Both the position numbers and the translations under genes were made by a program. DNA of 47,015 bases from positions 1-47,015 of the IMG/VR virus record IMGVR_UViG_3300024312_000005; one strand, 5' to 3'. This document shows, one piece after another, positions 5,830-47,015 of the stretch. Origin of the DNA: a virus. The notes beneath the pieces are model-generated. The model searched no databases. It was given only the letters and a program-made list of their open reading frames with translations, and was not told where the DNA came from. Numbering within the stretch: position 1 is the stretch's first letter; every line of letters begins with the position of its first letter.

Positions 5830-5870
5830 CATAGTCCTTTTATGTAGGAATACATAAATAGAATTCTCTC

Positions 5871-6139
5871 TAATTGCTGGAAACCCCTAAAGCTATGTGC
5901 ACCACAACGCAGGTCGAAAGATCAATCGTGATGGTTTGAAAAGAATATAGATACTACAATGGGCAATCAGCAGCCAAGCCTCTGAACAGAGGAAGGTTCA
6001 ACGACTAAGACCTTATCAGTCTGTAGAGTCAAGTGACTCGAAACGAGAGACCTCCAGAACGGAGGAAGATATAGTCTGGTCTGCATGGAAACATGCAGCT
6101 GCGAGTGATGTCGCGGGATGAGATTAACGACCTCATCTG
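5871..6139 (+). ncRNA. Group I intron catalytic core (group IA-like)
   Basis: A P-type element AATTGCTGGAAACCCC (from 5872) and an R-type element GGGCAATCAGCAGCC (5961-5975) can form the P4/P6 region. GACTA (6003-6007) pairs with TAGTC (6072-6076) as P7, enclosing P8-type hairpins such as GAGTC/GACTC and CCTCC/GGAGG. After P7 come hairpins GCATG/CATGC and GATGAG/CTCATC (P9 region), and the terminal G is at 6139. The order of elements matches group I introns such as T4 td. The 5' strand of P3 was not assigned with certainty. Confidence 0.85.
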
Positions 6140-10553: not shown

Positions 10554-11702
10554 ATGAAACACCTAAGCATAACTCAATTTCAAAAAACTCCAATTGTTCA
10601 AAGTATTTCTCTCGAATCACTTGAGCAAGATTTAAATAACTCTCTAAGTGGTTTAGAATTAAGTTCATTGAAACTATCATTCGGACTAGAAGATTCCGAT
10701 AGTCTTAAACAAAAAGTTAAAGATTTTCTAAGTAAAGTATTTAAAGCGATTGCTGATTTTCTTAGAAAAATAGCAAACAGTCTAGATTCTTCAGAACAAA
10801 AAAAGAGGAAAGAAGAGTTTGATAAGCTTATCCATAACAGCAATAGAATAAAAGAATTAGAAGAAACTCTAGCTGTTTTAAATGTGAAACTCTCAAGGAA
10901 AGCAGCAGATTATGAATCCAAAGAAGATTTTATTAAAGATCAAGCAGCCGAAATTGAAAGACTTAACATTAAGATCACAGAACTAAGAGGCGATTCTTAT
11001 AAAGTAAAGCTTCTAGAAAAAGATAAAGCCGATCTAACTAAGAAAAATACTGAATTACAGGATAAATTAAAATCCCATGTAAGTGCAACTGCTATAGTTT
11101 CAATGAGTTATAATTTATCTAGAAAAATATCAGTGGTTGGTAATACCTGGCGTAATGACTTATACATGTTGTTATTTCAAGAATATCACATGGTAAACAT
11201 TGCGACTGATTTAATGAGTGATTTGGATGACGCAGTTAAATTCTTTAAAGATTTTAATGATGCGTTAGAAAAGAATACCGGTTTTAAGGATATATCTATA
11301 CACGGCGGTACAGCTACTGATAAATACGAAGAAGTACTATCTAACGAACACCACATTAAAGAAATGATGGATAAGTGTCTTGATAGTAATGTTCATGAAT
11401 TTACAGCTAAATTACTTAAAGCCACAATGAGCTATGAACAGAAAGTGTTGAGGATTATCGATAAGGGTGGTGATAGTTCATCAGTTGCCGATAAGATTCT
11501 TGAAATGGCTCGATTTGCTGACAAGTTAGCAGACAGCGGTTCTAAAGAACACGGTTTAACTCAGGACGATATAGCTAAAATAAGAACGTTTAGAAATCTA
11601 ATATCTAACACAGCCATTTTATTGCAAGCAGTAAAACGCATCGGTAATCAATCTCGCACTCTTGTAATAGACATAGATAATTTAATTAATAACGGTGATT
11701 AA
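10554..11702 (+). CDS. Head or inner-body precursor protein, paralogue A
   Basis: This 382-residue protein has two protease-type sites near the N-terminus, S-L-E at residues 19-21 and G-L-E at 44-46. The second is followed by an amphipathic helix (LKQKVKDFLSKVFKAIADFLRKI). Residues ~90-180 look like a coiled coil, and the rest is helical. The adjacent gene 11755-12864 has the same plan with sites at exactly the same residue numbers, so the two are paralogues. The position next to the prohead protease supports a precursor whose N-terminal propeptide is removed in the capsid, as for phiKZ inner-body proteins. Cleavage is inferred, not shown. Confidence 0.75.
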   Translation: MKHLSITQFQKTPIVQSISLESLEQDLNNSLSGLELSSLKLSFGLEDSDSLKQKVKDFLSKVFKAIADFLRKIANSLDSSEQKKRKEEFDKLIHNSNRIKELEETLAVLNVKLSRKAADYESKEDFIKDQAAEIERLNIKITELRGDSYKVKLLEKDKADLTKKNTELQDKLKSHVSATAIVSMSYNLSRKISVVGNTWRNDLYMLLFQEYHMVNIATDLMSDLDDAVKFFKDFNDALEKNTGFKDISIHGGTATDKYEEVLSNEHHIKEMMDKCLDSNVHEFTAKLLKATMSYEQKVLRIIDKGGDSSSVADKILEMARFADKLADSGSKEHGLTQDDIAKIRTFRNLISNTAILLQAVKRIGNQSRTLVIDIDNLINNGD

Positions 11703-11754
11703 TATAAACGGCCTTGAGATTTAAATTCTATCTAAATTTAACTAAGATAATAAA

Positions 11755-12864
11755 ATGAAACACTTAAACCTAAAACAAACAATTGATTCGAACAATAGAT
11801 ACCATGTTTCGATGGAAACAATATCTGCTGATCTAAATTACAGTTTTGATAAAACTGATATTTTTGGTCTCAATAACTGCATTAGTTTAGAAGACGGTTC
11901 TACTTTTAAAGAAAAAGCTGCTAATTTCTTTAAAAAGATAATTGAAAAAATAAAACAACTTATAGCTTGGTTTAAAGAAAAGATTTTTGGAACAAATAAA
12001 ACACAAACGGAACAATTAAATAATAATAGTAAGAAGTTTAAAGAAAATATAGAAGAAGCTGAACGAGAAATCAAAAAAGAACAAAAAGATACAACTAAAC
12101 AAAGTGCATCTAACGAACAATCAAACCCTGATATTCAGAACGTCACTATCGGTGAATTAAAAACACTTGTAGAAAATAAAGCTAAGGAAACTGGTGTTCA
12201 ATTAAATGCTTTTTCCGACTATCATCGTGTAATAAATGGTATTTTCGATATTAAGACCGATAGTCGTTTTCATAATGGATTCGTAAATACCGGTGCACAA
12301 ATTTTAAATGCCCGGAATCTACCTTATTTTTGTTATGCGCAAAATGATTACACTTATATAGTAAGACTATCAGACAGTATCGTTCGTTTAGTTACAGTCA
12401 TAAAAGGTATGACTGAAACATACAAGAAATCAGAGTCTTTACAAGATGTAATTGATTATCTTGAACGTAACTCAAACTTAATTAACGAAAATAAGAAATT
12501 AACTGAGTTTGAGATTGATGAAGTTGAATTAAAAGATATAAATAATAAAACAATTAAAGAAGTCGCATATCAAATTTACGACACGGTTAAAGTAATTTCA
12601 CCCATGATTGAGAGAGTAATTAATCTTTACGAAAAATTCTTAATAGAAGAACAAAGTAAAGATAGTGTGGTTGAAAAAATGGCCGTAGCTATTACAGACG
12701 TTTTGTTAACCGGAATAACTGGTAAAGATCTCACAAGTGATGAGACAAAATTAGAAAGAGAAATACTTAAAACATATTACGAATTAGTAAGAGCTGCTAT
12801 AAATGCAATTAATAAGTTAACCAGGACTCGAGAACAATTTAATCGAGTAGTAAGCACGATGTGA
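11755..12864 (+). CDS. Head or inner-body precursor protein, paralogue B
   Basis: The 369-residue protein starts MKHLNLKQ, close to MKHLSITQ of the preceding gene. It has S-M-E at residues 19-21 and S-L-E at 44-46, followed by the amphipathic helix FKEKAANFFKKIIEKIKQLIAWFKEKIF. A charged region rich in K, E, Q and N then leads to a helical body. The shared site spacing and the helix after the second site argue for a duplication. Like its neighbour it is a likely substrate of the prohead protease. An independent terminator follows. Confidence 0.75.
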   Translation: MKHLNLKQTIDSNNRYHVSMETISADLNYSFDKTDIFGLNNCISLEDGSTFKEKAANFFKKIIEKIKQLIAWFKEKIFGTNKTQTEQLNNNSKKFKENIEEAEREIKKEQKDTTKQSASNEQSNPDIQNVTIGELKTLVENKAKETGVQLNAFSDYHRVINGIFDIKTDSRFHNGFVNTGAQILNARNLPYFCYAQNDYTYIVRLSDSIVRLVTVIKGMTETYKKSESLQDVIDYLERNSNLINENKKLTEFEIDEVELKDINNKTIKEVAYQIYDTVKVISPMIERVINLYEKFLIEEQSKDSVVEKMAVAITDVLLTGITGKDLTSDETKLEREILKTYYELVRAAINAINKLTRTREQFNRVVSTM

Positions 12865-32114: not shown

Positions 32115-32918
32115 TTAGATGTGATTAGGAATCATGGAGTTTATTGCACGACTAAAGCTTTCTCGATCATTCATCAACAATACCTTCTGAAGCTTCTCAA
32201 CCTTATATGTTTCATAAAGTTCATTCGCATCACTGTATTGGCTGATGATTTCTTTGAAAACTCCCAACTCTTGGCCACCATATAGTTCTGCCTGGCCCAT
32301 TTGGATAACATATTCATTATAGATATAAGCTTTAACAGCGTACTCACAAGCTTTACTAAAATGACGATATGCTCTAACTTGTAGGTGATTCATCTCGGCA
32401 TCGTTAGCAATCATGCATCTCAGGTATACGGTGCCTGGAAGATGATTTGCATCGCGTATCATGATCACGTTCTCACCAATGATCTGTACGCTAGCTGTTG
32501 AAATCGACGGCATGTTGGTGGAGGAATTAAATAATCCTCTTGCCAGATTCATCATGTCTCCACCGTTTAGAACAGTATTTGGACCGATGGCTTCCGCGTA
32601 ACCTGGATCTGCGTATGTTAGGTTTAATGCACTAACTATACTTCTGCCTTGTGTTCTTTCTTTTGGTATTCGAATGACAACGGTATAGTTATTCACTCTC
32701 TCTTGTTCAAGTCCAGCAAGCGATACCATTACTTGGGCACCACCAATTAAATTACAATCAACAAGAACTCTCGGTCTTATGACTGCATTGATTATTTGTT
32801 CATCAATGTTGACTGGGGTATTTCTATAGTTGAAACCATTCTTTACAAAGACGGTTTCCAATATTTGTCTTGGGATGACGAACTTAATGTCATCTACGGC
32901 TTTTCTGATTGGGTTCAT
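32115..32918 (-). CDS. Probable virion protein, unrecognised (267 aa)
   Basis: From ATG 32918 (MNPIRKAVDDIKFVIPRQIL) the protein has 267 residues. The frame extends to a GTG at 32951, but the extra codons look unlike protein and lack a site. The centre is beta-rich (VLVDCNLIGGAQVMVSLAGL, YTVVIRIPKE), followed by helices with several tyrosines (CEYAVKAYIYNEYVIQMGQAELYGG). phiKZ-like genomes carry structural proteins beginning with a similar MNPIRKA..DIKF..P pattern as far as I recall, which suggests a neck or tail role at low confidence. Confidence 0.7.
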   Translation of the reverse strand: MNPIRKAVDDIKFVIPRQILETVFVKNGFNYRNTPVNIDEQIINAVIRPRVLVDCNLIGGAQVMVSLAGLEQERVNNYTVVIRIPKERTQGRSIVSALNLTYADPGYAEAIGPNTVLNGGDMMNLARGLFNSSTNMPSISTASVQIIGENVIMIRDANHLPGTVYLRCMIANDAEMNHLQVRAYRHFSKACEYAVKAYIYNEYVIQMGQAELYGGQELGVFKEIISQYSDANELYETYKVEKLQKVLLMNDRESFSRAINSMIPNHI

Positions 32919-33059
32919 TTTGTTCTTTCTAGTACAACAAATTACAACCACATATTACTGTTATAGCTAATATTCGGTATGTCTGTTAATGCGATTTGTT
33001 AATCACTCATACAAAGACTGCAACAACTTTGTTATATTTTTATTTCCTCTCATTTATTT

Positions 33060-33096: not shown

Positions 33097-34077
33097 ATGA
33101 GTAAAGCTACAGCACGAATCTACGCTTGCGGCGGTGCAGGTGTAAACATTGGTAAGTTACTTCTTGAATTCAATCGCACAGAAGAACCAGGTGCGGCAAC
33201 AATTGATGTTGCTTTCATTGATACAAGTTCCTCAAATATTGATAACAACATCAATCCTGAGAGCATGTATATTTTTGAAAACATTGACGGCTCAGGTAGT
33301 ATTCGTTCAGAAAACTACAAGGCCATTTCTGAAAACACTCTAAAGATTCTTAAAAAGTTTGAGCCAAAAGACATCAACATCGTTGTCTCGTCGACTGGTG
33401 GTGGTTCTGGCTCAGTCATTGCTCCTTCGATTGTTTCACAGCTTCTGGAAGATGACCAACAAGTAGTCGTTATCCAAATCGGTGATTCCGATTCCAAGAT
33501 TCGAATCAACAACAGCATTCGTTGCATTAAATCGTACGAAGCCATTTCTCAAAAACGAGGCAAGCCTGTTGTCATTTCGTATTTTGAAAATAGCACAACG
33601 AATACTCGTTCCAGTGTCGACAATTCTGTTCGAAACGTTATTATCGCTTTGTCTGTCGTTTTCTCACGTCAGAATTCTGAACTAGACAGTCGAGACCTTT
33701 ATAACTTCTTGAACTTCCATAAAGTAACTTCGAATAATCCTCAGATTGCAGAACTATCTGTTCTTTCGCAAACCACTTTAAAGGACTTCGAAGAATCCGC
33801 AGTAACGGTAGCCACTGTTGCTGAGAATGAATCGCAAGCTAATTTGGAGATTACTCCTGAGTATCGTTGCGTTGGTTATTTGCCCGCTTCAGTAAACAAA
33901 GAAATTGCAAGCAGCCTACCCATTCATTTGGTGGTTACGATTGGTGGTTTCTACGATCAGATCAAAGCCATGGAAGAGCGAGTCGTTCAGATTGAAAAAG
34001 ATCAAAAAGCTCGCCGTCCACAAGCTCGCATCATCAGTGAAAATGATGATCCTACTGAATCCGGCATCATTCTGTAA
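33097..34077 (+). CDS. phuZ: Tubulin/FtsZ-like GTPase (PhuZ type)
   Basis: The 326-residue protein starts with ACGGAGVNIGKLL, the nucleotide-binding GG.G.N motif of the tubulin/FtsZ family, and carries the tubulin signature as STGGGSGSVIAPSI at residues ~99-112 (consensus GGGTGSG). Size matches phage PhuZ proteins of about 310-330 residues. PhuZ filaments centre the phage nucleus and deliver capsids to it in phiKZ-like infections. The C-terminus has a helix (YDQIKAMEERVVQIEKDQKARR) and a flexible tail with acidic residues (SENDDPTESGIIL), similar in kind to the tail PhuZ uses for filament contacts. AAGGA and a leader stem-loop precede the gene, and codon use suggests strong expression. I did not find a clear catalytic T7 loop by eye. 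Confidence 0.85.
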   Translation: MSKATARIYACGGAGVNIGKLLLEFNRTEEPGAATIDVAFIDTSSSNIDNNINPESMYIFENIDGSGSIRSENYKAISENTLKILKKFEPKDINIVVSSTGGGSGSVIAPSIVSQLLEDDQQVVVIQIGDSDSKIRINNSIRCIKSYEAISQKRGKPVVISYFENSTTNTRSSVDNSVRNVIIALSVVFSRQNSELDSRDLYNFLNFHKVTSNNPQIAELSVLSQTTLKDFEESAVTVATVAENESQANLEITPEYRCVGYLPASVNKEIASSLPIHLVVTIGGFYDQIKAMEERVVQIEKDQKARRPQARIISENDDPTESGIIL

Positions 34078-34083
34078 TGAATA

Positions 34084-34113
34084 ATAAATGGGAGGATTAA
34101 TCCTCCCATTTAT
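34084..34113 (+). terminator. Perfect 30-base palindrome terminator
   Basis: Bases 34084-34098 and 34099-34113 are exact reverse complements, with core GGGAGG/CCTCCC and ends ATAAA/TTTAT followed by GCC. It lies right after the tubulin-like gene. Confidence 0.82.
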
Positions 34114-34230: not shown

Positions 34231-34602
34231 ATGCCTAGGATCTACATTCTAGACATAACTGAATTTAATGCTCTTGTAGAGCCGATCATAGTTCAGTATG
34301 TTAAAAACGTAATGCCTTACATGACTCCGGTGAGTAACGTAAAGGCAATATCTGCTAAATTACAAAATGACTTAATTAGTCATTTACTAGAGGAAATATA
34401 TTTTACATCTGTTACCAACTTCAATAAAAAATACGCAGGTATAGATGAGATAAAAAACATTCTCAATCAAGAAACATTTAACTACGAAAGATTATTTAGA
34501 ACAGGATTACCCGATTTTGGAATAACTACTTTTTCCGATTTCATTAAAATAAGAATAATCAAGAATGTTCTGATAGTTACGAAAGACAGCAATGAAGACT
34601 AA
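34231..34602 (+). CDS. Small overlapping-cluster protein A (123 aa)
   Basis: First of eight closely packed genes. The protein begins with a strand and helix (PRIYILDITEFNALVEPIIVQYV), followed by helices with LISHLLEEI, and ends with the hydrophobic strand IRIIKNVLIVTKDSNED. This plan recurs in the products at 35365, 35744, 36159, 36508 and 36971. No known family is recognised. It overlaps the next gene by 11 bases, so translation is probably coupled. Confidence 0.65.
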   Translation: MPRIYILDITEFNALVEPIIVQYVKNVMPYMTPVSNVKAISAKLQNDLISHLLEEIYFTSVTNFNKKYAGIDEIKNILNQETFNYERLFRTGLPDFGITTFSDFIKIRIIKNVLIVTKDSNED

Positions 34603-35368
34603 GATAAACTTTGACGGGTCATTTACAGCGTTAATTCCCGTTTCCGAATACATCGAGTTGTTTGAATCATCAATAGCTGATCTGTACATCGATCAACCCA
34701 CGATGATTTGTGATGGCAAAGCAAATAGTATTTTGTTAAAGCCAGGACATCTGTTTGTAGCAAAATCTAAATCAGGACAGGTTAATTTCCCACATATCTA
34801 CGACGGTAAACCCGGCTCATTCAGTTCAATCATCAACGCTATATTGGTTAATAAAAATAAAGATCCAATTAGTATTTATGATTCGAAAGGTATCGAATTA
34901 ATAAATGCTAACAATGCACCGGCTATCGTTGAGAAAAAACCTACAAGACACATCAGTATTGAATTGGTTATTTCTTTTATAGCTAATCAATTAAATAGAA
35001 ATTCTGCTTGGAAAAATAAATACACTGTCTTAAATGGGGTGATCTTACCTCATAATGGATTTATTAATCAAGATCGCAAGGAATTTTATCAACATTTAGC
35101 AGATTGTCTGGATATTGATAAACTAGGTATTCCTTTGTCTTTCAGAAATAATCCAAAGAACAAAATCACAGACTCTGAACAATTCATCCAAATAGAAGAA
35201 TTCTTTAAACTCTCCTTAACTCCTCTACACACACAGCTTAACCAGTTGTTTGATGGTGATCGATGGGGTGTGTATAAAATCAACATCAAATTCGATTATT
35301 GCCTTATAGAGAGAACTGATTTCAGAATTCTTCATTGGAATAATCTTGAGTTGGCTGGTTCAGAATGA
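34592..35368 (+). CDS. Cluster protein B (258 aa), unknown
   Basis: The largest member of the cluster. It opens with FTALIPVSEYIELFESSIADL, like the strand-helix start of its neighbours, and ends YKINIKFDYCLIERTDFRILHW. Between lies a longer region with HLFVAKSKSG, KPGSFSSIINAILV and a second helical part, so it may be an elongated or duplicated version. Function unknown. It overlaps the preceding gene by 11 bases and the next by the 4-base ATGA. Confidence 0.65.
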   Translation: MKTKINFDGSFTALIPVSEYIELFESSIADLYIDQPTMICDGKANSILLKPGHLFVAKSKSGQVNFPHIYDGKPGSFSSIINAILVNKNKDPISIYDSKGIELINANNAPAIVEKKPTRHISIELVISFIANQLNRNSAWKNKYTVLNGVILPHNGFINQDRKEFYQHLADCLDIDKLGIPLSFRNNPKNKITDSEQFIQIEEFFKLSLTPLHTQLNQLFDGDRWGVYKINIKFDYCLIERTDFRILHWNNLELAGSE

Positions 35369-35817
35369 GTCATAATCAAGATAATGAGAAGCTGTATGTT
35401 CGAGCAATCTTCAGTATAACTGAAGAGCTATCGTTTCTTAAAGATACGTTCAAATTCAGCGATATAAAAGCCACGTCACTATTGCTAGACTTGATTCTGG
35501 AACATGTGTTCAATGGGCGTTTTGAATTAAACGTCAAAAACATTTCAATTTTTACATCACATCTAGATGTTGTTGAATTGGAAAGACTCATACCAGAGAT
35601 AAAAATCTGCATAGATCAAATTTACGATAAGATAACCGCACTATCACCAGACATAGTCCCGTTAAAGGACAAGATATACCACGTCTATGATGGCGGTGCT
35701 TTCGTTTTAATCTACGTCCCGTATAACGAAACACGACACCATAATGTCAATCGATCGACGCTTTTATCGGAAAACGCAATTAATTGTTCCATTAGAGCAC
35801 ATAGTCGACATGTGTGA
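35365..35817 (+). CDS. Cluster protein C (150 aa), unknown
   Basis: Begins with the strand-helix pattern LYVRAIFSITEELSFLKDTF, continues with LLLDLILEHVFNGR, and has the terminal strand AFVLIYVPYNETR. The last ~25 residues lie in the stretch that also encodes the start of the next gene in another frame. Start shares ATGA with the stop of gene B. Confidence 0.62.
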   Translation: MSHNQDNEKLYVRAIFSITEELSFLKDTFKFSDIKATSLLLDLILEHVFNGRFELNVKNISIFTSHLDVVELERLIPEIKICIDQIYDKITALSPDIVPLKDKIYHVYDGGAFVLIYVPYNETRHHNVNRSTLLSENAINCSIRAHSRHV

Positions 35818-36184
35818 TGGAATGAAGGATTTCTATTTCTTCCTAGACGGAGGATTGAGAGAATCTATATTGATTGCATTTCAATCAATTCATTCAACGC
35901 AATACCTAGACAGTTTCATTTTGTTTTCAGATCAAATAGAAGAAAAATTCGACTCATACGTTGCTTTGCTTGAGTCTAATAATTCTGCTGATAAGTCATT
36001 GCTTTTGAACAAAGAAAATTTATCAATGGCAAACATGGTGGTATTCATGGAGGTTGAGAATATTCTCAAATTAATGGACGTACCAGATAGTTTGAAAATT
36101 TATTCAGCTAACAAGATAGGTTCTCTCAAAACAAATTTAGTTCTACTAGAATTGAAAGATGACCGCCAACTATATTGTGTTTGA
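35744..36184 (+). CDS. Cluster protein D (146 aa), unknown
   Basis: The N-terminal strand and helix are KTQLIVPLEHIVDMCDGMKDF, then a leucine-rich helix (RESILIAFQSI). The C-terminal strand is LKTNLVLLELKDDRQLYCV. With the ATG at 35744 it overlaps gene C by 74 bases. An ATG at 35810 would leave only an 8-base overlap but would remove the conserved strand, so the earlier start is preferred. Function unknown. Confidence 0.6.
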   Translation: MSIDRRFYRKTQLIVPLEHIVDMCDGMKDFYFFLDGGLRESILIAFQSIHSTQYLDSFILFSDQIEEKFDSYVALLESNNSADKSLLLNKENLSMANMVVFMEVENILKLMDVPDSLKIYSANKIGSLKTNLVLLELKDDRQLYCV

Positions 36185-36599
36185 TGTTGGGAATCATCTT
36201 TGTAACTTTCAAAATTACATCCAGTCTCCAAACTTACCAACAATTGATGAAGATGCCGTTTTGGCTATACTCGTAGATTGTTTGAGAATCAAAAACTCAG
36301 TTAATGATCAGTTTTTCTTTATGGAGAATGAGATGATTAACGGTATGCTTTTTTCTTCTAAACTAATGTGTGAAGATTTGAGCGAATTTGGAATATACAG
36401 CGGTGAAGAATCTGTGGTTCGTCAAGATTTGATTAAAGCTGCTGGATTGGCTATTGAAATAGGCAAAGAGATTTTCCGACAAGCTGTAATACTAAAGCTT
36501 TACGAAAATGAACACTTTAATTACGAATATTACAGAACCATCAATCCAAGGATCATTATCCTCACCAGGATTGGTTTTGATAGACCCTGCTTCGGTTGA
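36159..36599 (+). CDS. Cluster protein E (146 aa), unknown
   Basis: Starts NYIVFDVGNHLCNFQNYI with a following helix (EDAVLAILVDCLRIKN) and ends with the strand YYRTINPRIIILTRIGFDRP. The FNYEYYRT part is like FNYERLFRT near the end of protein A. It overlaps D by 26 bases and F by 92 bases. Function unknown. Confidence 0.6.
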   Translation: MTANYIVFDVGNHLCNFQNYIQSPNLPTIDEDAVLAILVDCLRIKNSVNDQFFFMENEMINGMLFSSKLMCEDLSEFGIYSGEESVVRQDLIKAAGLAIEIGKEIFRQAVILKLYENEHFNYEYYRTINPRIIILTRIGFDRPCFG

Positions 36600-37041
36600 T
36601 AAAAACCAATCTAAATATGTAACTGTGGATCTTTACGATCCTTTCTCCAGTTACCGAGAAGTAGTTGAATCTTTGGAAGAAATATGTATTCACTACGATG
36701 AAGCGATAGCTGACATGATTGCTGTTATAAGTAGGAAAGATATTGCTCTGAACTCGATTTCTCAAAGAGTTATGTCTACAATTTCTACTGAAGTAGCGAT
36801 GCTTGATGAAGTGACTAAGTACATGACTGCTTGGGAAAATTTGTCAAAACAAATGCTTTATCGCTTTCTTCAGCTTGGTCTTTATAGAAACAATTACTTG
36901 TACTATCAAATCCAATCTTTACTGAGCACAACACTCATTATGGAAAAAATAGAAATACCGGATTTGAATAATGAGTTTACAAGAAATCTTCATATCTCAA
37001 GAATCTTGGCTGATCCTCCCTGCCCACGAAATCATTATTGA
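36508..37041 (+). CDS. Cluster protein F (177 aa), unknown
   Basis: Residues ~35-70 show the strand-helix pattern (SKYVTVDLYDPFSSYREVVESLEEI) after a ~35-residue extension that overlaps gene E. The end of the shared part is LLSTTLIMEKIEIPDLN, followed by a tail that overlaps gene G. The ATG at 36508 is the only ATG before the conserved part; a TTG inside could be the true start. No ribosome binding site was obvious. Confidence 0.58.
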   Translation: MNTLITNITEPSIQGSLSSPGLVLIDPASVDKNQSKYVTVDLYDPFSSYREVVESLEEICIHYDEAIADMIAVISRKDIALNSISQRVMSTISTEVAMLDEVTKYMTAWENLSKQMLYRFLQLGLYRNNYLYYQIQSLLSTTLIMEKIEIPDLNNEFTRNLHISRILADPPCPRNHY

Positions 37042-37387
37042 GTTCAACAAAGTAGTTGATTCAATACCTACTTGTTCTAGAATTTTCAATGAAAACAAAG
37101 AATATTTTCTAGAACAAGTATTGCTGTCTATTCTTCAGAATTATCGTTATGAGGATGAGTTTGATTTTCCATCCGAAGAAATGATTGATGAATTTGAAGT
37201 CTATGACAGTATTTCAAGGAATAGAATCAAATGCGCTTTTGCCAACTTAATGAGAGAGATATTGTCTCTTTTTCGAACCTACGAAGTGATTGATCATTTT
37301 GGTCCGAAAGTATTAAGTAGGATTGTTATGAATTCTTCTGTTATAATGATATCTAGAAAAGGACTCCGAAATGAGTTATCCATTTAA
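36971..37387 (+). CDS. Cluster protein G (138 aa), unknown
   Basis: Strand-helix start SWLILPAHEIIIEFNKVVDSI, leucine-rich helix FLEQVLLSILQNY, and C-terminal strand IVMNSSVIMISRKGLRNEL. It overlaps F by 71 bases and H by 17 bases. It shares the A/D/E fold plan, with little residue identity. Function unknown. Confidence 0.6.
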   Translation: MSLQEIFISQESWLILPAHEIIIEFNKVVDSIPTCSRIFNENKEYFLEQVLLSILQNYRYEDEFDFPSEEMIDEFEVYDSISRNRIKCAFANLMREILSLFRTYEVIDHFGPKVLSRIVMNSSVIMISRKGLRNELSI

Positions 37388-37772
37388 AATTAGAAGCACA
37401 TATAGCTTTGACGTATATCCTGATACAATCATCGGGAATGATTACAAAAATGTGACGGTTCTTGCAATCGTTGATTACCAAACAGCATTGTCCATGGGTG
37501 TTGATATTGACGCCATCCATGTTAATGTGTTCCCTCAGCTTCCAGCTGGTCTTCCAGATGATCCTCAAGCAACCGAATACATTAAGATTCGAACTGCGTC
37601 TAATATCGAAACTGTGATTGGTATCAATTGGATTCGTGAAAATACAATCCAAGAAGTGCAGTCTCTCAGAGCAGTTATAACTGTTGAGGGAGTTACCAGT
37701 TTGGATTTGCCCAAGATTCTTTTGGCCATAGAACAAAACGGATACAACAATGTATCTGGAGTTTTACAGTAA
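37371..37772 (+). CDS. Cluster protein H (133 aa), beta-rich, possible structural protein
   Basis: This last member differs from the others. It is beta-rich (IRSTYSFDVYPDTIIG, VTVLAIVDYQTALSMG, EYIKIRTASNIETVIGINWI, LRAVITVEG), a pattern compatible with a small barrel such as an SH3-like fold. AAAGGA with good spacing gives it a better ribosome binding site than its neighbours, suggesting higher expression. A virion or baseplate-associated role would fit the type. No terminator follows directly, and the structured region at 37775 lies downstream. Confidence 0.65.
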   Translation: MSYPFKIRSTYSFDVYPDTIIGNDYKNVTVLAIVDYQTALSMGVDIDAIHVNVFPQLPAGLPDDPQATEYIKIRTASNIETVIGINWIRENTIQEVQSLRAVITVEGVTSLDLPKILLAIEQNGYNNVSGVLQ

Positions 37773-37774
37773 AA

Positions 37775-37940
37775 AAGAATTACGCTTTCTATTGTATGAG
37801 TAACTGATCGATTACTTACTTAACGCGGCTTTTACAGTTTCCTTTCAGCTTGCGTTAAGAGCGATTTACCTCGCATAGATCGCGAACGTAGCGTGTGCGT
37901 TCGAGTTGAACTCAAGTATGGGTTGCTTGGGTGTAGAGGG
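37775..37940 (+). ncRNA. Candidate structured small RNA
   Basis: No open frame is supported. Three stems follow in order: TTAACGC (37820-37826) with GCGTTAA (37852-37858); CGCATA (37872-37877) with TGTGCG (37894-37899) enclosing CGC/GCG; and GAGT/ACTC (37903-37913). The stretch is more GC-rich than the flanking genes and ends in a strong terminator, the usual layout of an independently ended small RNA. A tRNA was considered and rejected. Family unknown. Confidence 0.4.
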
Positions 37941-37978
37941 AGTGAGAATGGGCCGGTCCCATTCTCACTTTTTATATT
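37941..37978 (+). terminator. Strong rho-independent terminator
   Basis: AGTGAGAATGGG (37941-37952) pairs perfectly with CCCATTCTCACT (37958-37969) around loop CCGGT, followed by TTTTATATTTTG. Confidence 0.92.
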
Positions 37979-37999
37979 TTGTTTTTTTTTTTGCTTAAA

Positions 38000-38557
38000 A
38001 TGAATAAACTACACAAACTGGCAAACCTAATTAATTTACATCTCAAAAATAAAATACTAGATCCAATTGTTCACTTTGTCAAAGATCAATACGAGTATAG
38101 ATTTAGACAGATAACAATAGAGGATGCATTTTTCTTTGATTATAACTATACTAGATTTTTCACAAGTCAGATTGATTGGTTTTTTATAAATGGCGTTTTC
38201 ACTAAATCAAATATCAATGATGGTTTAGAAGGTGTTTTTTATAAAGACATAACAGTCACAGATACAAAGAGAGCTGGTACTGAAATAAGAGTATTGGTGG
38301 CTCTGAATAAGCTACCTTTAGACCCAATCATGTTTTCCGACAATCCCGCTTCTAGACAGCGTTATATTGTTGAGATAAATTTCATTCCAATTGATAAGTC
38401 TTATAAAGTTTATCCATCTATTGTCAGCTCCAATCTTTCTCTCAATGAGTTGTTTGGAATCTTTTTAAGCGATGCGTCACTTAGTCATTATCTAAAGACT
38501 TATTTTGATACATCTGATGCTTTGGACAAACATGTGTTAGATTCAAAAAACAAATAA
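38000..38557 (+). CDS. Unknown protein (185 aa)
   Basis: From ATG 38000 (MNKLHKLANLINLHLKN) the protein has 185 residues; the frame is open to 37979, but those codons lie in the terminator T-run. It has an alternating beta pattern (RFRQITIEDAFFFDYNYTRFF, GTEIRVLVALNKLPLDP, RYIVEINFIPIDKSYKV). Not recognised. It is just ahead of the DNA polymerase gene but separated from it by a perfect palindrome terminator. Confidence 0.65.
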   Translation: MNKLHKLANLINLHLKNKILDPIVHFVKDQYEYRFRQITIEDAFFFDYNYTRFFTSQIDWFFINGVFTKSNINDGLEGVFYKDITVTDTKRAGTEIRVLVALNKLPLDPIMFSDNPASRQRYIVEINFIPIDKSYKVYPSIVSSNLSLNELFGIFLSDASLSHYLKTYFDTSDALDKHVLDSKNK

Positions 38558-38558
38558 A

Positions 38559-38586
38559 ATAAATAGAGGATTAATCCTCTATTTAT
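38559..38586 (+). terminator. Perfect 28-base palindrome terminator
   Basis: Bases 38559-38572 and 38573-38586 are exact reverse complements (core AGAGGATT/AATCCTCT), ending TTTATGC, like the element at 34084-34113. Confidence 0.8.
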
Positions 38587-38636
38587 GCTGCTTTTTTACA
38601 ACTATCACTATTAATTTGATTAATAAGGAAACTATC

Positions 38637-40853
38637 ATGACAGCTACTAATCCTTTTGTCTTAGAGAAAAACGAATACAAAAGAGATCTGAACATCGTCA
38701 GTCATTACATTGAACAAGCTACTAACTACCTATCGATCGTAACAGGTAAATCGATAGAAGAATGTAAAAACTGGGTTGTATCTAATCTTAAGCCTGGTGG
38801 TAAGTTTGAATTCAAAGATCCAAAGATTGTTTATTTGGAAAGACTGGATAATGGAGATCGAATTGAAAAAAGCGGAACAATGCTTGAATTCATTCAATCG
38901 TCCATTTCTGATCAAGACCTGATCGCTCCAAATTTAACGTGTTATATATCTCCCAAAATCAACCAATCACTTCTTGTTAATTTTATCGACGATAACGTTA
39001 AGGCCAGATCTGCTGCTAAGAAAGCGATGTTTGCAGCGGAACAAGCCGGAGATAAACATACGCAGACACTTAAAAAGATTGAGCAAGGAAATAAGAAGAT
39101 TTCTAATAACTCAATTTCTGGTGGTCACGTATCTAGCTCAACCGTGCTTGTTAATAAGACGGCCCACTCAACACTAACTTCTAACTGTAGATCTACATCT
39201 GGTTACGGTAATGCCAATAATGAAAAAATGTTATCAGGTAACAGACATTATTGGAACCCAAACATTGTTACTGGCAACATCATTTCAATCATTACCAGAA
39301 CAGATTACGATAGATTACAAAAGGTAATTGATAAATATAAAATCAATTATCCTACAGTTGAAGAAACTCTAGAATGTATAACTTATTCAACTAATCTGTA
39401 TTGGAAGAACAAACACGCTTTAAAGAGAATCAGAACTCTTATCAGTAGACTATCTCCAATTCAGCGCGCCGCTTTCGTATATACTGGCGATTTATATCAC
39501 ATTAGGAAACATAATCCGGAACTAGTCAGAACATTTATAGCTAAATTGACTACCACTGTAAATGCAGCCTACGACATTGATCCAATTAAAACAATGGATG
39601 AAAGTCGCGAAGAGTTCCATAACCTGGCAAAACTTTTCTTCCCGGAAAGAATGCAAGACATGGCTGTCAGAGGTAGATCTTTGGCAGACGTTATGAAACA
39701 GATTAAGGATTCTAAGAAATCGAATCCCGACACGACTCTCGAGGAATTGCATCAGATCAAAGACTATCAGTCTCTTTGTGATGTGGCTGTCACTGCCAAA
39801 CACGCAAGCGCTGTTATTGATGAGTATGGTGATTTCATCGAGTGTTTCTTTGTTACCGATAACGTTCCAGCTTCTCTGGCTTATTTCCCAACAAGCATTA
39901 GAAGGGCAGCATTAACTTCTGATACAGACTCAACCATCTTTACGGTTCAGGAATGGGTGGAGTGGTTTAATAACGGAGTCATTACTTTTGATCCAAAGGG
40001 AATGGCTGTGGCTTGCTCCATGATCTTTCTTGCTGCTGAAGCAATCACTCATGTTCTTGCAAGAATGTCTGCCAACTTTGGTATCGAAGAAAAGCGGATA
40101 CATCAAGTAGCCATGAAGAATGAATACTATTTCCCAGTATTCACTCCCACTCAAGTAGGTAAACATTACTTCGCAGGTATATTTGCTCAAGAAGGAAATA
40201 TCAAAAAAGAACTGGAAATGGAAATCAAAGGCGTTCATTTGAAATCCTCAAATGTTCCCAAGATTATCATGAAGCAAGCTGAAAAGATGATGAATGACAT
40301 CGTTGAAGCAGTTTTGCGTGGTGAGAAAATAAGTCTGGTAGAGTACCTTACTAAGGTAGCGGATGCTGAAAGAGAAGTTAGAAGATCTCTACTTGCTGGA
40401 GAGTCCACTTACTTCCGTAAGAATCAAATTAAGATTCCTGCAGCATACACCAAGAGTGCGGAAGAATCTCCATACCAGTATCACTTGTTCTGGAACGAGG
40501 TATTTGGTCCTAAATACGGAACTGTAACAGAACCGCCTTATACCTGTCTCAAAGTGTCAGTTAATCTTACATCCAAAGTTGTGATTAAGCAATGGATTGC
40601 TTCAATAAGCGATAAACCTTTAGCTGCTCGACTAGAAGCTTGGGTTGCAAGAAATAATAAAACGAGCATTAAGTCGTTTTTAATTTCTGAAGAAATGCTT
40701 AGAAGAATTGGTATGCCTGAAGAAATTAAATCAATCATGGATTTGAGAAAAACCATTTTCGATATATCTTCAGTCTTCTATATTGTTCTTGAAACGTTAG
40801 GTTACTATGTGGTAAACGAAAATCTGACCAGATTGATATCTGATGAGTACTGA
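38637..40853 (+). CDS. Family B DNA polymerase, C-terminal part (motifs B, C and KxY)
   Basis: From ATG 38637 (AAGGAA upstream) the protein has 738 residues. It shows palm and thumb motifs of family B polymerases: QGNKKISNNSISG (motif B, ~residues 150-162), LTSNCRSTSGYGN after it, TSDTDSTIF (motif C, catalytic aspartates, ~residue 425), and KHYFAGIFAQEG then IKGVHLKSSNVPK, matching the KxY region. The 3'-5' exonuclease and motif A (DxxSLYPS) are missing, and the chain begins just after where motif A would lie. phiKZ-like phages split their polymerase into two genes, so the N-terminal part is expected elsewhere in the genome. Confidence 0.87.
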   Translation: MTATNPFVLEKNEYKRDLNIVSHYIEQATNYLSIVTGKSIEECKNWVVSNLKPGGKFEFKDPKIVYLERLDNGDRIEKSGTMLEFIQSSISDQDLIAPNLTCYISPKINQSLLVNFIDDNVKARSAAKKAMFAAEQAGDKHTQTLKKIEQGNKKISNNSISGGHVSSSTVLVNKTAHSTLTSNCRSTSGYGNANNEKMLSGNRHYWNPNIVTGNIISIITRTDYDRLQKVIDKYKINYPTVEETLECITYSTNLYWKNKHALKRIRTLISRLSPIQRAAFVYTGDLYHIRKHNPELVRTFIAKLTTTVNAAYDIDPIKTMDESREEFHNLAKLFFPERMQDMAVRGRSLADVMKQIKDSKKSNPDTTLEELHQIKDYQSLCDVAVTAKHASAVIDEYGDFIECFFVTDNVPASLAYFPTSIRRAALTSDTDSTIFTVQEWVEWFNNGVITFDPKGMAVACSMIFLAAEAITHVLARMSANFGIEEKRIHQVAMKNEYYFPVFTPTQVGKHYFAGIFAQEGNIKKELEMEIKGVHLKSSNVPKIIMKQAEKMMNDIVEAVLRGEKISLVEYLTKVADAEREVRRSLLAGESTYFRKNQIKIPAAYTKSAEESPYQYHLFWNEVFGPKYGTVTEPPYTCLKVSVNLTSKVVIKQWIASISDKPLAARLEAWVARNNKTSIKSFLISEEMLRRIGMPEEIKSIMDLRKTIFDISSVFYIVLETLGYYVVNENLTRLISDEY

Positions 40854-40931: not shown

Positions 40932-40993
40932 TTATGGTGTCCATGCGAGAACTTGCCCGCCGCCGGTTGCTGTGAGTGCCACGGTTAACGCGC
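40932..40993 (-). pseudogene. Orphan spike C-terminal peptide, out of frame with the esterase
   Basis: Downstream of the esterase stop, in another minus-strand frame, the DNA reads GALTVALTATGGGQVLAWTP then TAA. This matches the last residues of the neighbouring beta-helix spike, SGSISATGGGQVLGWVN. It has no start codon of its own. It could be the lost C-terminal tail of the esterase after a frameshift, or a relic of a replaced spike. Confidence 0.55.
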
Positions 40994-42178
40994 CCAATCG
41001 GCCCGGACCACAGCCGCGAGGCCTGGGGCCATTGCCCGCGCACCCGCCGCGTTGAAATGAAATTGCTCGCCGGATTTTTGGTATCCCAGCGGAGCCCGGA
41101 CGTAATAGACGCCCCAATCAGTACGCGCCAACTCTTGATGGGCTCCATCGATGCGGCCATGGGCCGCTGACGATGCGATGTATTCGGGGACGATTGACCC
41201 GATAACGCAGCGCATTTTCGACGCGCCAGCAACCCCTCGGAACCCGGCCAGCATCGACTGGAATGCAGTTTGATACTGCTGCTTTGTGCGCAGGTTTGTA
41301 GCGTCAGCCTCACCCTGAATCCAAAACATGACCGGCACAGCGACTGGGTTATCCGCCAGGGCTGCGGTCAGTTTTGTCACGGTATCCGTGTACCGAGCGC
41401 CGCTCGGCGACGCCCACGGACCGCCTACCAGGGCCGTGCCGCCGATTGCCGTCGGGACAATCGTCACACGGCTGGCCTTGCCAGCGGTCAACAGGCTCTT
41501 GGCGATGTGATACGCCGGACACGGGCCTAGCGCTCCGATGTTCGCAAAATCGATCTGGTTAAAAATCGGCTCGGCGGCGACCGGGTAGCTCGTCCCGCTC
41601 GACAGCACTTCGCGCAACTGAAAATCGCGCAGTCTCGCGAACACCGTGCCTGTTGGCGTGGTGCCAGAGTTAGAGATCAACTCGACTGTGTGACTTGTCG
41701 CTGTCGCTGTCCAGCGCGTAGACATTGCCTGAGCAACGCCTGTGCCGCGCACGTCCTGCGATGTGTACCGAGTGCCGCCGATGAGCGTTGGATTCGATGT
41801 GCCCAAACGAAACTGGGCGTCTGCGCTCACGGGCTCAACCCAGCCCGTCAGTTCGTATGTGGTTCCAACAGTCAGCCCCGTGATTGTGCGGATCATGTTC
41901 GGGAAACTGGCTGCTGTGGCCGTGAGCGTCAGCACGCCGCCAGTTGAGGCCCCCGTGAATCCACTTAACGTCCAACCAGTTGCCCCGTCGAAAAAATCGC
42001 CGTTGGAAATTAGGTTGTCGCCTTTGCCAATGTCGAACACGCGGATGCGCTCGTCGCCAGCCTCGGCAGTGCTGATTCTGTCGGGCGCAGTCCAGCCAGC
42101 CATGTTTGATTGACCTGCTGCTAGCAGAATGATTTCATTTGCGTTAGGGGTCCAGCCCGGTGCGTCAAGTAATCCCAT
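40985..42178 (-). CDS. Tail-spike with SGNH / sialate O-acetylesterase-like domain
   Basis: The 397-residue protein has a block I motif GQSNMAG (residues ~23-29), WIQGEADAT near residue 299, and a terminal HFNAAGARAM, the usual pattern of the SASA/DUF303 branch of SGNH hydrolases (GQSN, QGE, catalytic His). The segment LISNGDFFDGATGWTLSG through about residue 190 looks like a carbohydrate-binding beta-sandwich inserted into the hydrolase. Such enzymes remove acetyl groups from capsule or O-antigen sugars. The N-terminus MGLLDAPG resembles MGILDTPG of the next spike. GAAGGA precedes the ATG. It belongs to the GC-rich block. Confidence 0.82.
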   Translation of the reverse strand: MGLLDAPGWTPNANEIILLAAGQSNMAGWTAPDRISTAEAGDERIRVFDIGKGDNLISNGDFFDGATGWTLSGFTGASTGGVLTLTATAASFPNMIRTITGLTVGTTYELTGWVEPVSADAQFRLGTSNPTLIGGTRYTSQDVRGTGVAQAMSTRWTATATSHTVELISNSGTTPTGTVFARLRDFQLREVLSSGTSYPVAAEPIFNQIDFANIGALGPCPAYHIAKSLLTAGKASRVTIVPTAIGGTALVGGPWASPSGARYTDTVTKLTAALADNPVAVPVMFWIQGEADATNLRTKQQYQTAFQSMLAGFRGVAGASKMRCVIGSIVPEYIASSAAHGRIDGAHQELARTDWGVYYVRAPLGYQKSGEQFHFNAAGARAMAPGLAAVVRADWAR

Positions 42179-42194: not shown

Positions 42195-43580
42195 TTAATT
42201 TACCCATCCAAGGACCTGGCCGCCTCCAGTCGCAGAAATGCTGCCAGAAATGCTGCACTCACCTGCGACATAGGCCGTCCCCGTATTGGCTTCAGCGATG
42301 ATTGCGGGTCCGCTACCGGCGTCGATCTTTGTCCCATGTATCCACATGCGGACATCGTTTGACGCACGGGCAACGCCCGATGTGCTGTTGAGCGGACCCG
42401 CAATCATCTGGCCGCCAAATACAGCGCATTTAGCCTGTTCGATATGATGGTACAGACTGCCCTTGCTGTCGTAGTAATCTGGATTGACTGTGATCGATAC
42501 CACATCGTCGTGAGACGTTTCTGCCTGGCATGAGGTGGCTGTAAACAAGCCATTGCCCTTGCTGACCGGATTAATAGTCAGCACGAACATCGACCCAGCA
42601 ACCGCACTATCGCGGTGATAGTTCAGTCCATCCTTTGTGTTGCCATAAGCGCGGATGTTTACGTGACACACCAGCCCCTGGTTGCGTCGAATTCGCACAC
42701 CATCGCTCGCCGTCGTGTACGCCGAACCGCCCGCGTAGCTAGCCTCGCAGTTAACAGTCACGATGTTTCGAGTCGCGATTGGGTCGCAATACAAGGCACC
42801 ATCATAGCCACCGTAGAACGCAAAGTTCTCAAAATAGAGGTCTGTCGTGCAGGTCATAAAACGAGCAGCACTATTGGTTCGAGTTATTAGGGTATTTGCG
42901 TCGGTCGGCCGCAGTCCGTCAGCGCGTCGCAGGTACAGCAAACCGCCAGATATGCAGTATCCGCCCGTCGATGTGCTGTTAACGGTGGCAGGGTCAGCCA
43001 GCAGAGGTATATCCGTAAAACGTGACGACGAATCTCGCGTCAACATATCTCGAATTTGTAGCAGGTTCGCTATGGATGCCGTGTATGTGTTTGTGTATGT
43101 CGCGTCGGTCGTGGCCGAAAAATTGATGACGCCATCGCCCGCAGTGTTACGAACTACACCGCCGACTCCGATGAATGCTGCGTGTTGAGTCGGCTCCACA
43201 GCAGATCCACCCGTCAAAGCGCGTGACCCACCGTAGTATCCGGCTTTGACGTAGACCCGGTATGGCGCACCTGTCGCATTGCCGAGGACGATGGCCTGCT
43301 GAATAGTCAGCAGCGGCGCACGGAAATCGCCATCGAATGCGCCAAGGCCCGTATTCGTGTCAACGCCGGTCGCGACATCAACGTGATACGCAGCGCCGCT
43401 CCAGATTGCGCTGTTGACCAAATCGCGAGCGTTGAACGGATCAACCGAGTAAGTCCCTGTCTGCATGTCTCGGTAAATCCGAGGAACGAACGAAGGAGCC
43501 CATCCAAGGTTCGACGGAAGGTTGATATATTTGCGCCCGATCTGTTTTTCTGAAATACCGGGTGTATCGAGAATTCCCAT
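42195..43580 (-). CDS. Beta-helix tail-spike protein (receptor-binding or depolymerase)
   Basis: The 461-residue protein has a short N-terminal anchor region (MGILDTPGISEKQIGRKYIN), a spike-type start of the helix (YHVDVATGVDTNTGLGAFDGDFRAPLLTIQQAI, similar to the G-x-D-x-N-x-G and P-x-x-T-I-Q-x-A patterns), and many short strands such as TRNIVTVNCEASYAGGSAY and SDGVRIRRNQGLVCHVNIRAYGN. This is typical of pectate-lyase-like phage spikes that bind or cut surface polysaccharide. It ends ISATGGGQVLGWVN. GAGG before the ATG overlaps the end of the preceding gene. No catalytic residue can be named by eye. Confidence 0.82.
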   Translation of the reverse strand: MGILDTPGISEKQIGRKYINLPSNLGWAPSFVPRIYRDMQTGTYSVDPFNARDLVNSAIWSGAAYHVDVATGVDTNTGLGAFDGDFRAPLLTIQQAIVLGNATGAPYRVYVKAGYYGGSRALTGGSAVEPTQHAAFIGVGGVVRNTAGDGVINFSATTDATYTNTYTASIANLLQIRDMLTRDSSSRFTDIPLLADPATVNSTSTGGYCISGGLLYLRRADGLRPTDANTLITRTNSAARFMTCTTDLYFENFAFYGGYDGALYCDPIATRNIVTVNCEASYAGGSAYTTASDGVRIRRNQGLVCHVNIRAYGNTKDGLNYHRDSAVAGSMFVLTINPVSKGNGLFTATSCQAETSHDDVVSITVNPDYYDSKGSLYHHIEQAKCAVFGGQMIAGPLNSTSGVARASNDVRMWIHGTKIDAGSGPAIIAEANTGTAYVAGECSISGSISATGGGQVLGWVN

Positions 43581-45619: not shown

Positions 45620-47015
45620 ATGGCAGTTCATGATACCAACGATGGCCAAGCAGCAGCACCTAAGCAAAGCGCGGCCCAACAGTCTGCTCCTACTCCTAAC
45701 TTCGCGCCCGCCGCACGTCCACAAGCACAACGCAATACCAATATGTCTACCAATTCTATCAAGTCGCTGATGGCCTTCAAGGATCCCATCACCAACGTAC
45801 CTCACGCTGAAGCCATCAGCAATTTCCAAGAAACCATCAAGCGTGCACTTCCTCCCACGATTGATGACTTTGTAATGACCATCATTTCTGTTGACGGTCA
45901 AACCAACCAACTGAACATTTCTTCGATCATCGTTGCGATCCAGTTCGGTCAAAAGGGTCAAGCTACTCCCGGCTCTGGTGTCGCATACCACGCACTTCTG
46001 CTGGCTGACACCCTCGTCCAGAAGGATCGTCAAGACGTTGTTCAAATCAACGGTCAGAACGTTTCGGTCATTCGTCCTCCTTCGGATGCTTATGATGAAA
46101 AGTTCAAGGCACAAATCGCAGCCATCGTGGCTCGTGAGTTCCGTGGCGTTTCTCCGGACAAGATCTACGATGCTGATGGTGAAGTTATTCCTGCTGGCTT
46201 CGAGTACAAGAGTGATGACCAAGTTCGCGCTGTGATGTATAACGCGCTCAAGGCTGCTGCTTCGACTCTGGTGACTTGCACTCCGGACACCGGTGCTGAA
46301 GACTTCTCCCTGGCTCGCGCAGGCGGTCGTCTGACTGTGAATACCCGTGTTTCGATTCACCAACCTCACGCAGTCGATCCCGTTGGTCAACCTGTTCGCT
46401 CTGACATTGTCATTGACTTCATCGAAGTCAAGAACACTGAAGTCAATCGCGAAGTCCTGCCCTCGATCCACAGTGGTGAACAGTCTGAGAAGCTGTTTAC
46501 CATGAACGGTTTCATGGATCTGATGTGGAATCCTGAAGATTCTAACGTTGGCAATGGTGGTCAGTTTGCGTTTGCTCCTCTGAACCAACAACCTCGCACG
46601 AAGCTGTACCAGCCTCGCTTCGTTATCACTCGTAGCGATGTTGAAAATGCAGGTACTCTGCCTGTCCAACTGCTTCAACTGGCTTCGGTTCTGGCTCTGA
46701 CCCAGAATAACGCTTGGATGGCTCAGTTCATGCCTCAGAAGGGCATCAAGAATCCGATGCACAACATCGGTAACATCGGTTACGAAGCGATCCCCGCTCT
46801 GCAAAACCAGCCGGGTGCTCCTTTCAATACCCTTGATGACCAGTTCAGCATGCAACAGCTGGGCGCTCTGCTGCAAACCTATTTCCATCCTGATCTGTGG
46901 ATTTCGATGGATATCGAAGAATGCGGTCCTGGTACCTGGGCTAACTCCATCTTCATGGCGGGTGCTCAAGGCAATTCTCGTGCAAACCAAGAAATCTTTG
47001 CAGCAGCAGATTACC
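45620..47015 (+). CDS. Highly expressed protein, truncated at window edge (nuclear-shell or capsid candidate)
   Basis: Open from ATG 45620 (AAAGGA site) to the end of the window, 465 codons without a stop. Residues 1-~45 are disordered and rich in A, P, Q and S. A mixed alpha-beta domain follows (DDFVMTIISVDGQTNQLNISS, EKFKAQIAAIVAREFRG), then VRSDIVIDFIEVKN and the region LYQPRFVITRSDV..LLQLASVLALTQNNAWMAQF. Codon choice is strongly GC-shifted relative to neighbours, and the upstream leader resembles that of other abundant genes. I do not recognise a family with certainty. A major virion protein or the nuclear shell protein chimallin are the main candidates. A long antisense frame here is an artefact. 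Confidence 0.8.
   Translation, partial: MAVHDTNDGQAAAPKQSAAQQSAPTPNFAPAARPQAQRNTNMSTNSIKSLMAFKDPITNVPHAEAISNFQETIKRALPPTIDDFVMTIISVDGQTNQLNISSIIVAIQFGQKGQATPGSGVAYHALLLADTLVQKDRQDVVQINGQNVSVIRPPSDAYDEKFKAQIAAIVAREFRGVSPDKIYDADGEVIPAGFEYKSDDQVRAVMYNALKAAASTLVTCTPDTGAEDFSLARAGGRLTVNTRVSIHQPHAVDPVGQPVRSDIVIDFIEVKNTEVNREVLPSIHSGEQSEKLFTMNGFMDLMWNPEDSNVGNGGQFAFAPLNQQPRTKLYQPRFVITRSDVENAGTLPVQLLQLASVLALTQNNAWMAQFMPQKGIKNPMHNIGNIGYEAIPALQNQPGAPFNTLDDQFSMQQLGALLQTYFHPDLWISMDIEECGPGTWANSIFMAGAQGNSRANQEIFAAADY

Follow-up and report, generated by a model that had tools for sequence, protein, structure and literature searches.

A positionally conserved operon of highly divergent paralogues beside the SH3DP–DNA polymerase genes of nucleus-forming jumbo phages

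Introduction

What is encoded by the run of small, tightly overlapping genes that separates the tubulin PhuZ from the DNA polymerase of a jumbo phage, and do its products belong together? The run lies in a stretch of 47,015 nucleotides (nt), positions 1 to 47,015 of IMG/VR record IMGVR_UViG_3300024312_000005 (hereafter the window, meaning the whole stretch), and comprises seven small genes, here named A to G, placed between PhuZ and the genes of SH3DP (an SH3-fold protein associated with phage DNA polymerases) and of a family-B DNA polymerase (Pol or PolB). An initial annotation had read six of these genes as an expanded family of rapidly diverging paralogues with a possible virion, anti-host or anti-defence role.

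The window comes from a nucleus-forming (Chimalliviridae-type) jumbo phage, and it carries the genes of chimallin, PhuZ, a multisubunit RNA polymerase (RNAP; beta pieces), SH3DP and PolB, along with that of a large terminase. Phages of this group encode chimallin and a multisubunit RNAP with a divergent PolB and often PhuZ; in the window the latter three are represented by RNAP beta parts, phrog_2927 and PhuZ. The nearest loci found share approximately 44% identity in PhuZ and 58–60% in Pol, and relatives of Pol in cellular genome collections lie on contigs of Caballeronia, Paraburkholderia, Rhodoferax and Sulfuriferula assemblies, among others. The A–G cluster is best explained as an ancient operon of nucleus-forming jumbo phages that has not been described previously.

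Conservation of the gene order

Viral contigs were searched with alignments of PhuZ, SH3DP and Pol, and genome contigs with the Pol alignment, which together with annotated phages gave 131 distinct loci; those with at least two assigned groups were regarded as informative (n = 89). The order A-B-C-D-E/F/G is intact in 89 of the 89 informative loci and broken in 0, and well-assigned loci contain A to D as single copies followed by up to three E-type copies (four once). A run of small genes annotated as hypothetical also precedes SH3DP and the DNA polymerase in FLC9, LucasX, PhiPA3, Ea35-70, SURPRISE13, Proteus phage 10, Psa21, PhiEaH1, SL2 and SPN3US, adjoining SH3DP–Pol in the last of these (an 18-kb stretch) though no PhuZ is annotated there. 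The arrangement is not peculiar to the window; it is the usual, so far unremarked, layout of the SH3DP–Pol region in this phage family; no described system of such a layout was found in the libraries and papers searched.

A DNA-level search of phages gave no match, single-sequence tblastn with G or B gave no credible relative, and a single-sequence scan with PhuZ gave no relatives, which alignment queries did recover. In other phages, some extra unassigned genes lie between PhuZ and the paralogue set. A linkage to PhuZ was also considered and is judged unlikely, given that 17 of the 131 loci have no PhuZ match upstream in the available stretch and that none is annotated near the SPN3US cluster.

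Paralogy of the seven products

Clustering and iterated profiles of the open reading frames (ORFs) of the 131 loci yielded five groups: A (about 135 amino acids, aa), B (about 228 aa), C (about 148 aa), D (about 156 aa) and the superfamily E/F/G, present in up to four copies per locus. The window genes assign to A, B, D and, as E, F and G, to the superfamily, while the product between B and D reaches family C only via a subgroup profile built from same-position ORFs (79.8%, E 1.5e-5; E-values after iterative recruitment count the included sequences themselves). All six ORFs of the initial annotation are present at their coordinates and in their frames and are members of the set; its count was too low, since gene B, which it omitted, also belongs.

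Judged by sequence, E, F and G are clearly paralogues, with profile–profile probabilities of 98–100% in hhalign. The remaining links are fainter: D matches G at 81%, C matches E/F/G at 5–37%, B matches C at 17–26%, A matches E/F/G at no more than 7.6%, and B compared directly with E/F/G gives 0.1–3.8%. In 72 control comparisons with nine similar-sized families that these loci encode upstream of PhuZ, the probabilities did not exceed 0.8%; profiles of SH3DP, PhuZ and Pol against those of A–G gave at most 2.3%. In their best cross-family matches, A, C and D (to E/F/G) and B (to C) score higher than any of the 72 controls. A, B, C and D are linked to the set more weakly than E, F and G, yet above all controls. 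Because its direct match to E/F/G is so low, B is tied in mainly via C and by fold, and the paralogy of A, B and C rests on weak but controlled profile signals together with fold neighbours. A seven-member paralogous operon is well supported, and the early impression of closely packed paralogues that diverge strongly but have a common plan is supported. Its general C-terminal ending of the type 'hhhhxhxRK' did not hold; the E/F/G consensus is Y-x-x-G-x-(lp)-Y-x-F...(g)-x-D-I-v-L.

None of the seven window proteins matches Pfam at the gathering cut-off, and members of the E/F/G and B families give only stray weak matches; searches of PHROGs and Pfam with A–G returned only weak or unknown-function matches, and a PDB sequence search with the E/F/G profile returned mostly designed helical proteins. 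PhiPA3 gp039 (E 9e-17) and SL2 gp316 (E 1e-14) are recognisable by sequence as gene B.

Predicted fold

AlphaFold models were made for two of the seven proteins, E (136 sequences) and A (40 sequences). The model of E (predicted local distance difference test score, pLDDT, 91.8; predicted template modelling score, pTM, 0.84) consists of a strand (E5-9), four helices and two strands (E122-129 and E132-137), and that of A (pLDDT 88.2, pTM 0.82) of a strand (E3-8), four helices and two strands (E104-110 and E113-118). A and E are thus predicted to have one beta-alpha4-beta-beta topology, in which the strand-helix...strand plan first noticed in the sequence is recovered.

Foldseek comparison with BFVD returned, for both A and E, mainly uncharacterised small jumbo-phage proteins, with 14 of the top 50 targets common to the two. 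The matches of A include PhiPA3 gp038, gp039 and gp044, all of them genes of the homologous PhiPA3 cluster, gp044 being a weak fold match (prob 0.41, E 0.2). Other BFVD targets agree with cluster genes in length alone: Psa21 (129, 305 and 183 aa), SL2 (178 aa), PhiEaH1 (138 and 127 aa) and Ea35-70 (127 aa). In a structure comparison with the PDB (VIA-align), no listed fold rose above the noise expected of such models, the best Z being 6.1 for E and 4.2 for A.

Overlaps, transcription and selection

Neighbouring genes overlap by 11 (A/B), 4 (B/C), 74 (C/D), 26 (D/E), 92 (E/F), 71 (F/G) and 17 nt (G/SH3DP), as against zero in the 15 other same-strand neighbour pairs of the window, so that the overlaps of 4–92 nt are indeed unusually large. 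Of 32 relatives, 23 keep an E/F overlap of 20 nt or more (median 35 nt), which suggests coupled translation and fixed stoichiometry of the products; both of the closest loci also have a C/D overlap, of 86 and 110 nt in longest-ORF coordinates. The 92 nt of F fall on a non-conserved N-terminal extension and may in part be a start-call artefact, with TTG 36577 as the alternative start. The frames of A–G are regarded as coding because codon log-odds favour the annotated frame over both other forward frames in all seven genes, with the smallest margin in C, and because the ratio of non-synonymous to synonymous substitution rates (dN/dS) in close-relative pairs is 0.05–0.41.

These ratios place the cluster genes under purifying selection and give no support to gene-wide positive selection. 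At a Pol identity of about 84%, A–G keep 54–67% identity, and PhuZ and SH3DP 72% each; A–G evolve fast, without an arms-race signature, dN/dS being far below 1. The notion of an expanded family under strong diversification is not supported, given the invariant order, the single-copy state of A–D and the dN/dS values. Since the gene set is stable, its order fixed and selection purifying, subunits of one assembly would fit better than an arms-race array.

The palindrome AGGATTAATCCT occurs exactly twice in the window, at 34093-34104 and 38567-38578 (about 0.15 occurrences expected by chance, one mismatch allowed), and both copies lie in hairpins flanking the operon, one after PhuZ and the other just before Pol. 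A terminator-like hairpin separates SH3DP from Pol in 33 of the 72 relatives that have both PhuZ and Pol; in 3 of the 72 such a hairpin falls within the cluster. Based on the hairpin after PhuZ, the terminator after SH3DP and these counts, A–G and SH3DP probably form one transcription unit, with Pol separate downstream. The coordinates are collected in Table 1.

Table 1. Genes and elements of the A–G locus and the chimallin gene of the window
Feature	Position	Strand	Evidence and remarks
PhuZ tubulin, upstream neighbour	33097..34077	+	phrog_4733 E 2.2e-91; Pfam Tubulin
30-nt palindrome/hairpin between PhuZ and A	34084..34113		contains AGGATTAATCCT core
Gene A, 123 aa	34231..34602	+	recruited to family A (45 loci); AlphaFold model, beta-alpha4-beta-beta
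Gene B, 258 aa	34592..35368	+	family B, 102 loci incl. PhiPA3 gp039 and SL2 gp316; conserved C-terminal IEK..DxRI..W
Gene C, 150 aa	35365..35817	+	divergent subgroup within family C; placed between B and D; subgroup profile
Gene D, 146 aa	35744..36184	+	family D, 44 loci; D-G profile match
Gene E, 146 aa	36159..36599	+	E/F/G superfamily; AlphaFold model
Gene F, 177 aa	36508..37041	+	E/F/G superfamily; start may be later (start analysis)
Gene G, 138 aa	36971..37387	+	recruited to E/F/G profile, E 1.9e-7
SH3DP, last operon gene	37371..37772	+	PF20287 E 1.8e-32; phrog_3235
Intrinsic terminator closing operon	37937..37973	+	strong; 16-bp stem, T-tail; downstream of SH3DP
Family-B DNA polymerase, separate downstream gene	38616..40853	+	phrog_2927 E 1.6e-252
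Chimallin (ChmA), runs off window end	45620-47014	+	phrog_4795 nuclear shell protein E 1.9e-56; PF25677 E 2.5e-20; PDB chimallin E 2.3e-13

Proposed function and alternative explanations

We tentatively favour the view, a little short of calling it probable, that A–G are subunits of one hetero-oligomeric, replication-linked complex acting with SH3DP and the family-B DNA polymerase. The overlapping genes would cause the seven products to be made together, and these would assemble into one hetero-oligomer, perhaps via pairing of their terminal strands. The complex is speculated to act with SH3DP and Pol inside the phage nucleus in processivity, priming or scaffolding. Each subunit would keep its place through contacts to specific neighbours, while its surfaces drift and co-evolve. 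As relatives keep the gene order, A–G probably build one shared machine. PMC7824862 describes, for the phiKZ-like group, a small SH3 protein encoded next to a divergent PolB and proposed to be a polymerase subunit, and reports no classical sliding clamp and neither DnaG-type nor AEP primases; moreover, knockdown of phiKZ049 (SH3DP) and 050 (Pol) has a strong effect and impairs plaquing (PMC12571901). The phiKZ genes 043-048 are absent from the hit table of that study and, by its text, were maybe never screened. It is also conceivable, but quite unlikely, that A–G assemble in a set order as a hetero-oligomeric ring or scaffold and stand in for the missing sliding clamp or primase, with a fold lacking a clear PDB match; sequence divergence that is too rapid would have kept such a machine out of core-genome lists.

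Several points weigh against the replication-linked complex. Replisome subunits are usually better conserved than A–G, and the window Pol is a separate transcription unit beyond the terminator. The interaction of SH3DP with Pol is itself a prediction: the citation for it in the knockdown paper (PMC12571901) traces back to the prediction of PMC7824862. By sequence alone, the kinship of A and B to the remaining set is weak; the fold models cover A and E, and the bridging BFVD matches mostly have TM-scores of 0.2–0.5. An explanation in which only E, F and G are true paralogues and the unrelated A–D acquired the simple strand-helix-strand plan by convergence would suit the low absolute hhalign values of A and B against E/F/G (0.1–7.6%) and the noise-level PDB matches. 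The excess of the best matches over all controls and the topology and BFVD neighbours common to A and E speak against convergence, which we consider rather unlikely.

Anti-defence, virion and import-adaptor roles are all rated less likely than the replication-linked complex. The paralogues could be nucleus-shell or import adaptors, binding the shell or a cargo and conveying replication proteins to the interior of the phage nucleus, one cargo each, and specialisation for one cargo would then account for their divergence. PhiPA3 gp044, which gene A weakly resembles in fold, bears an annotation of similarity to phiKZ gp047, and the non-conserved import factor Imp2 may be phiKZ gp47. According to a review (PMC13282480), there are several additional Imp proteins, which work in combinations that depend on the cargo. 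Against this stand the position of the fixed gene set, which adjoins the polymerase and not picA/imp1, and the finding of no localisation data for cluster genes, and an import role appears unlikely. A set of anti-host or anti-defence proteins, each blocking a different host target, would agree with small, fast-evolving products and with the extra unassigned genes found next to the set in other phages; however, gene classes and order are kept in distant relatives, selection is purifying, and no such family was seen in Pfam or PHROGs (PADLOC was not searched), making this a doubtful proposal. A hetero-oligomer of minor structural or ejected virion proteins is the most improbable, even though phiKZ-like virions contain many paralogous proteins, such as families A, B and C of SPN3US (PMC5694885): the operon is placed in a replication block, the PhiPA3 annotation names gp012, gp020 and gp021 as virion proteins but none of gp038-gp046, and no DNA polymerase subunits were detected in the SPN3US virion (PMC5694885). 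For the terms tried, the main texts of the proteomics papers do not mention the cluster genes. The virion and anti-defence roles suggested at the outset found no positive evidence.

A–G supply specific candidates for the clamp and primase functions that these phages reportedly lack, and that gap becomes testable. The operon is positionally conserved across nucleus-forming phages and has largely been missed by homology searches and homology-based annotation; a core genome defined by PSI-BLAST with a presence cut-off of >95% (PMC10299810) would tend to overlook genes of this kind. It also offers a test case of paralogues whose order stays fixed even as sequence drift leaves them hardly recognisable.

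Neighbouring genes and other features of the window

A DUF7484 protein (PF24302, E 9.4e-85) is encoded at 32115-32951 (minus strand) next to PhuZ, and in several relatives a minus-strand gene of similar length lies close to the cluster. The PhiPA3 counterpart by position is gp037, whose annotation notes a similarity to phiKZ gp042; in the phiKZ knockdown screen, gene 042 ranked with the strongest hits. A 192-aa ORF (37979-38557) without a family match, which possibly starts at ATG 38000, lies downstream of the operon terminator and ahead of Pol. Beyond Pol, a carbohydrate (sialic-acid-specific) acetylesterase (40985-42178, minus strand; PF03629 E 4e-23) adjoins a phrog_16653 hydrolase (42195-43580, minus strand), perhaps tail-associated. 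The chimallin gene, open at the window end, is missed by a closed-ORF listing; a 467-aa minus-strand ORF overlies it.

Elsewhere in the window, the RNAP beta gene is split at 4909-6098 by two elements, a homing endonuclease ORF of HNH/NUMOD type (4909-5829) and a group I intron (5814-6098; Rfam RF00028, E 2.4e-22); the ORFs on either side align to 5-1050 and 1090-1422 of one RNAP family. Two adjacent genes at 10554-12864 have similar N-termini (MKHLSI... and MKHLNL...) and possibly encode paralogous head proteins, the first without a PHROG match.

Comparison with known systems

The closest described counterpart is the SH3DP–PolB neighbourhood of group 1 (phiKZ-like) jumbo phages (Iyer et al. 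2021, PMC7824862; PF20287), defined by a PF20287 protein upstream of a group 1 PolB. The window shows the same neighbourhood, with SH3DP ending the operon and PolB downstream; the available text of that paper describes the SH3 protein only, and not the paralogues upstream. Counterparts by position, all hypothetical proteins, are phiKZ gp043-gp048, PhiPA3 gp038-gp045 and SL2 gp317-gp311. Gene B matches its PhiPA3 and SL2 counterparts by sequence and gene A matches PhiPA3 gp038 by fold; most of the others are beyond sequence recognition and are not described as one family in anything found.

More distant likenesses may help to frame the operon. In the replication cluster of T4, small accessory genes (clamp, clamp loader, RegA) are packed beside a family-B DNA polymerase. 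The resemblance would lie in this placement of accessory genes; unlike A–G, the T4 genes are not paralogues of one fold, and no clamp or AAA+ similarity was found for A–G. LSm rings and GINS are hetero-oligomers of paralogues, and as a working analogy, which extends to the composition of the set and not to fold or assembly, A–G may be likened to them as a fixed set of small paralogues in which each member has its own place.

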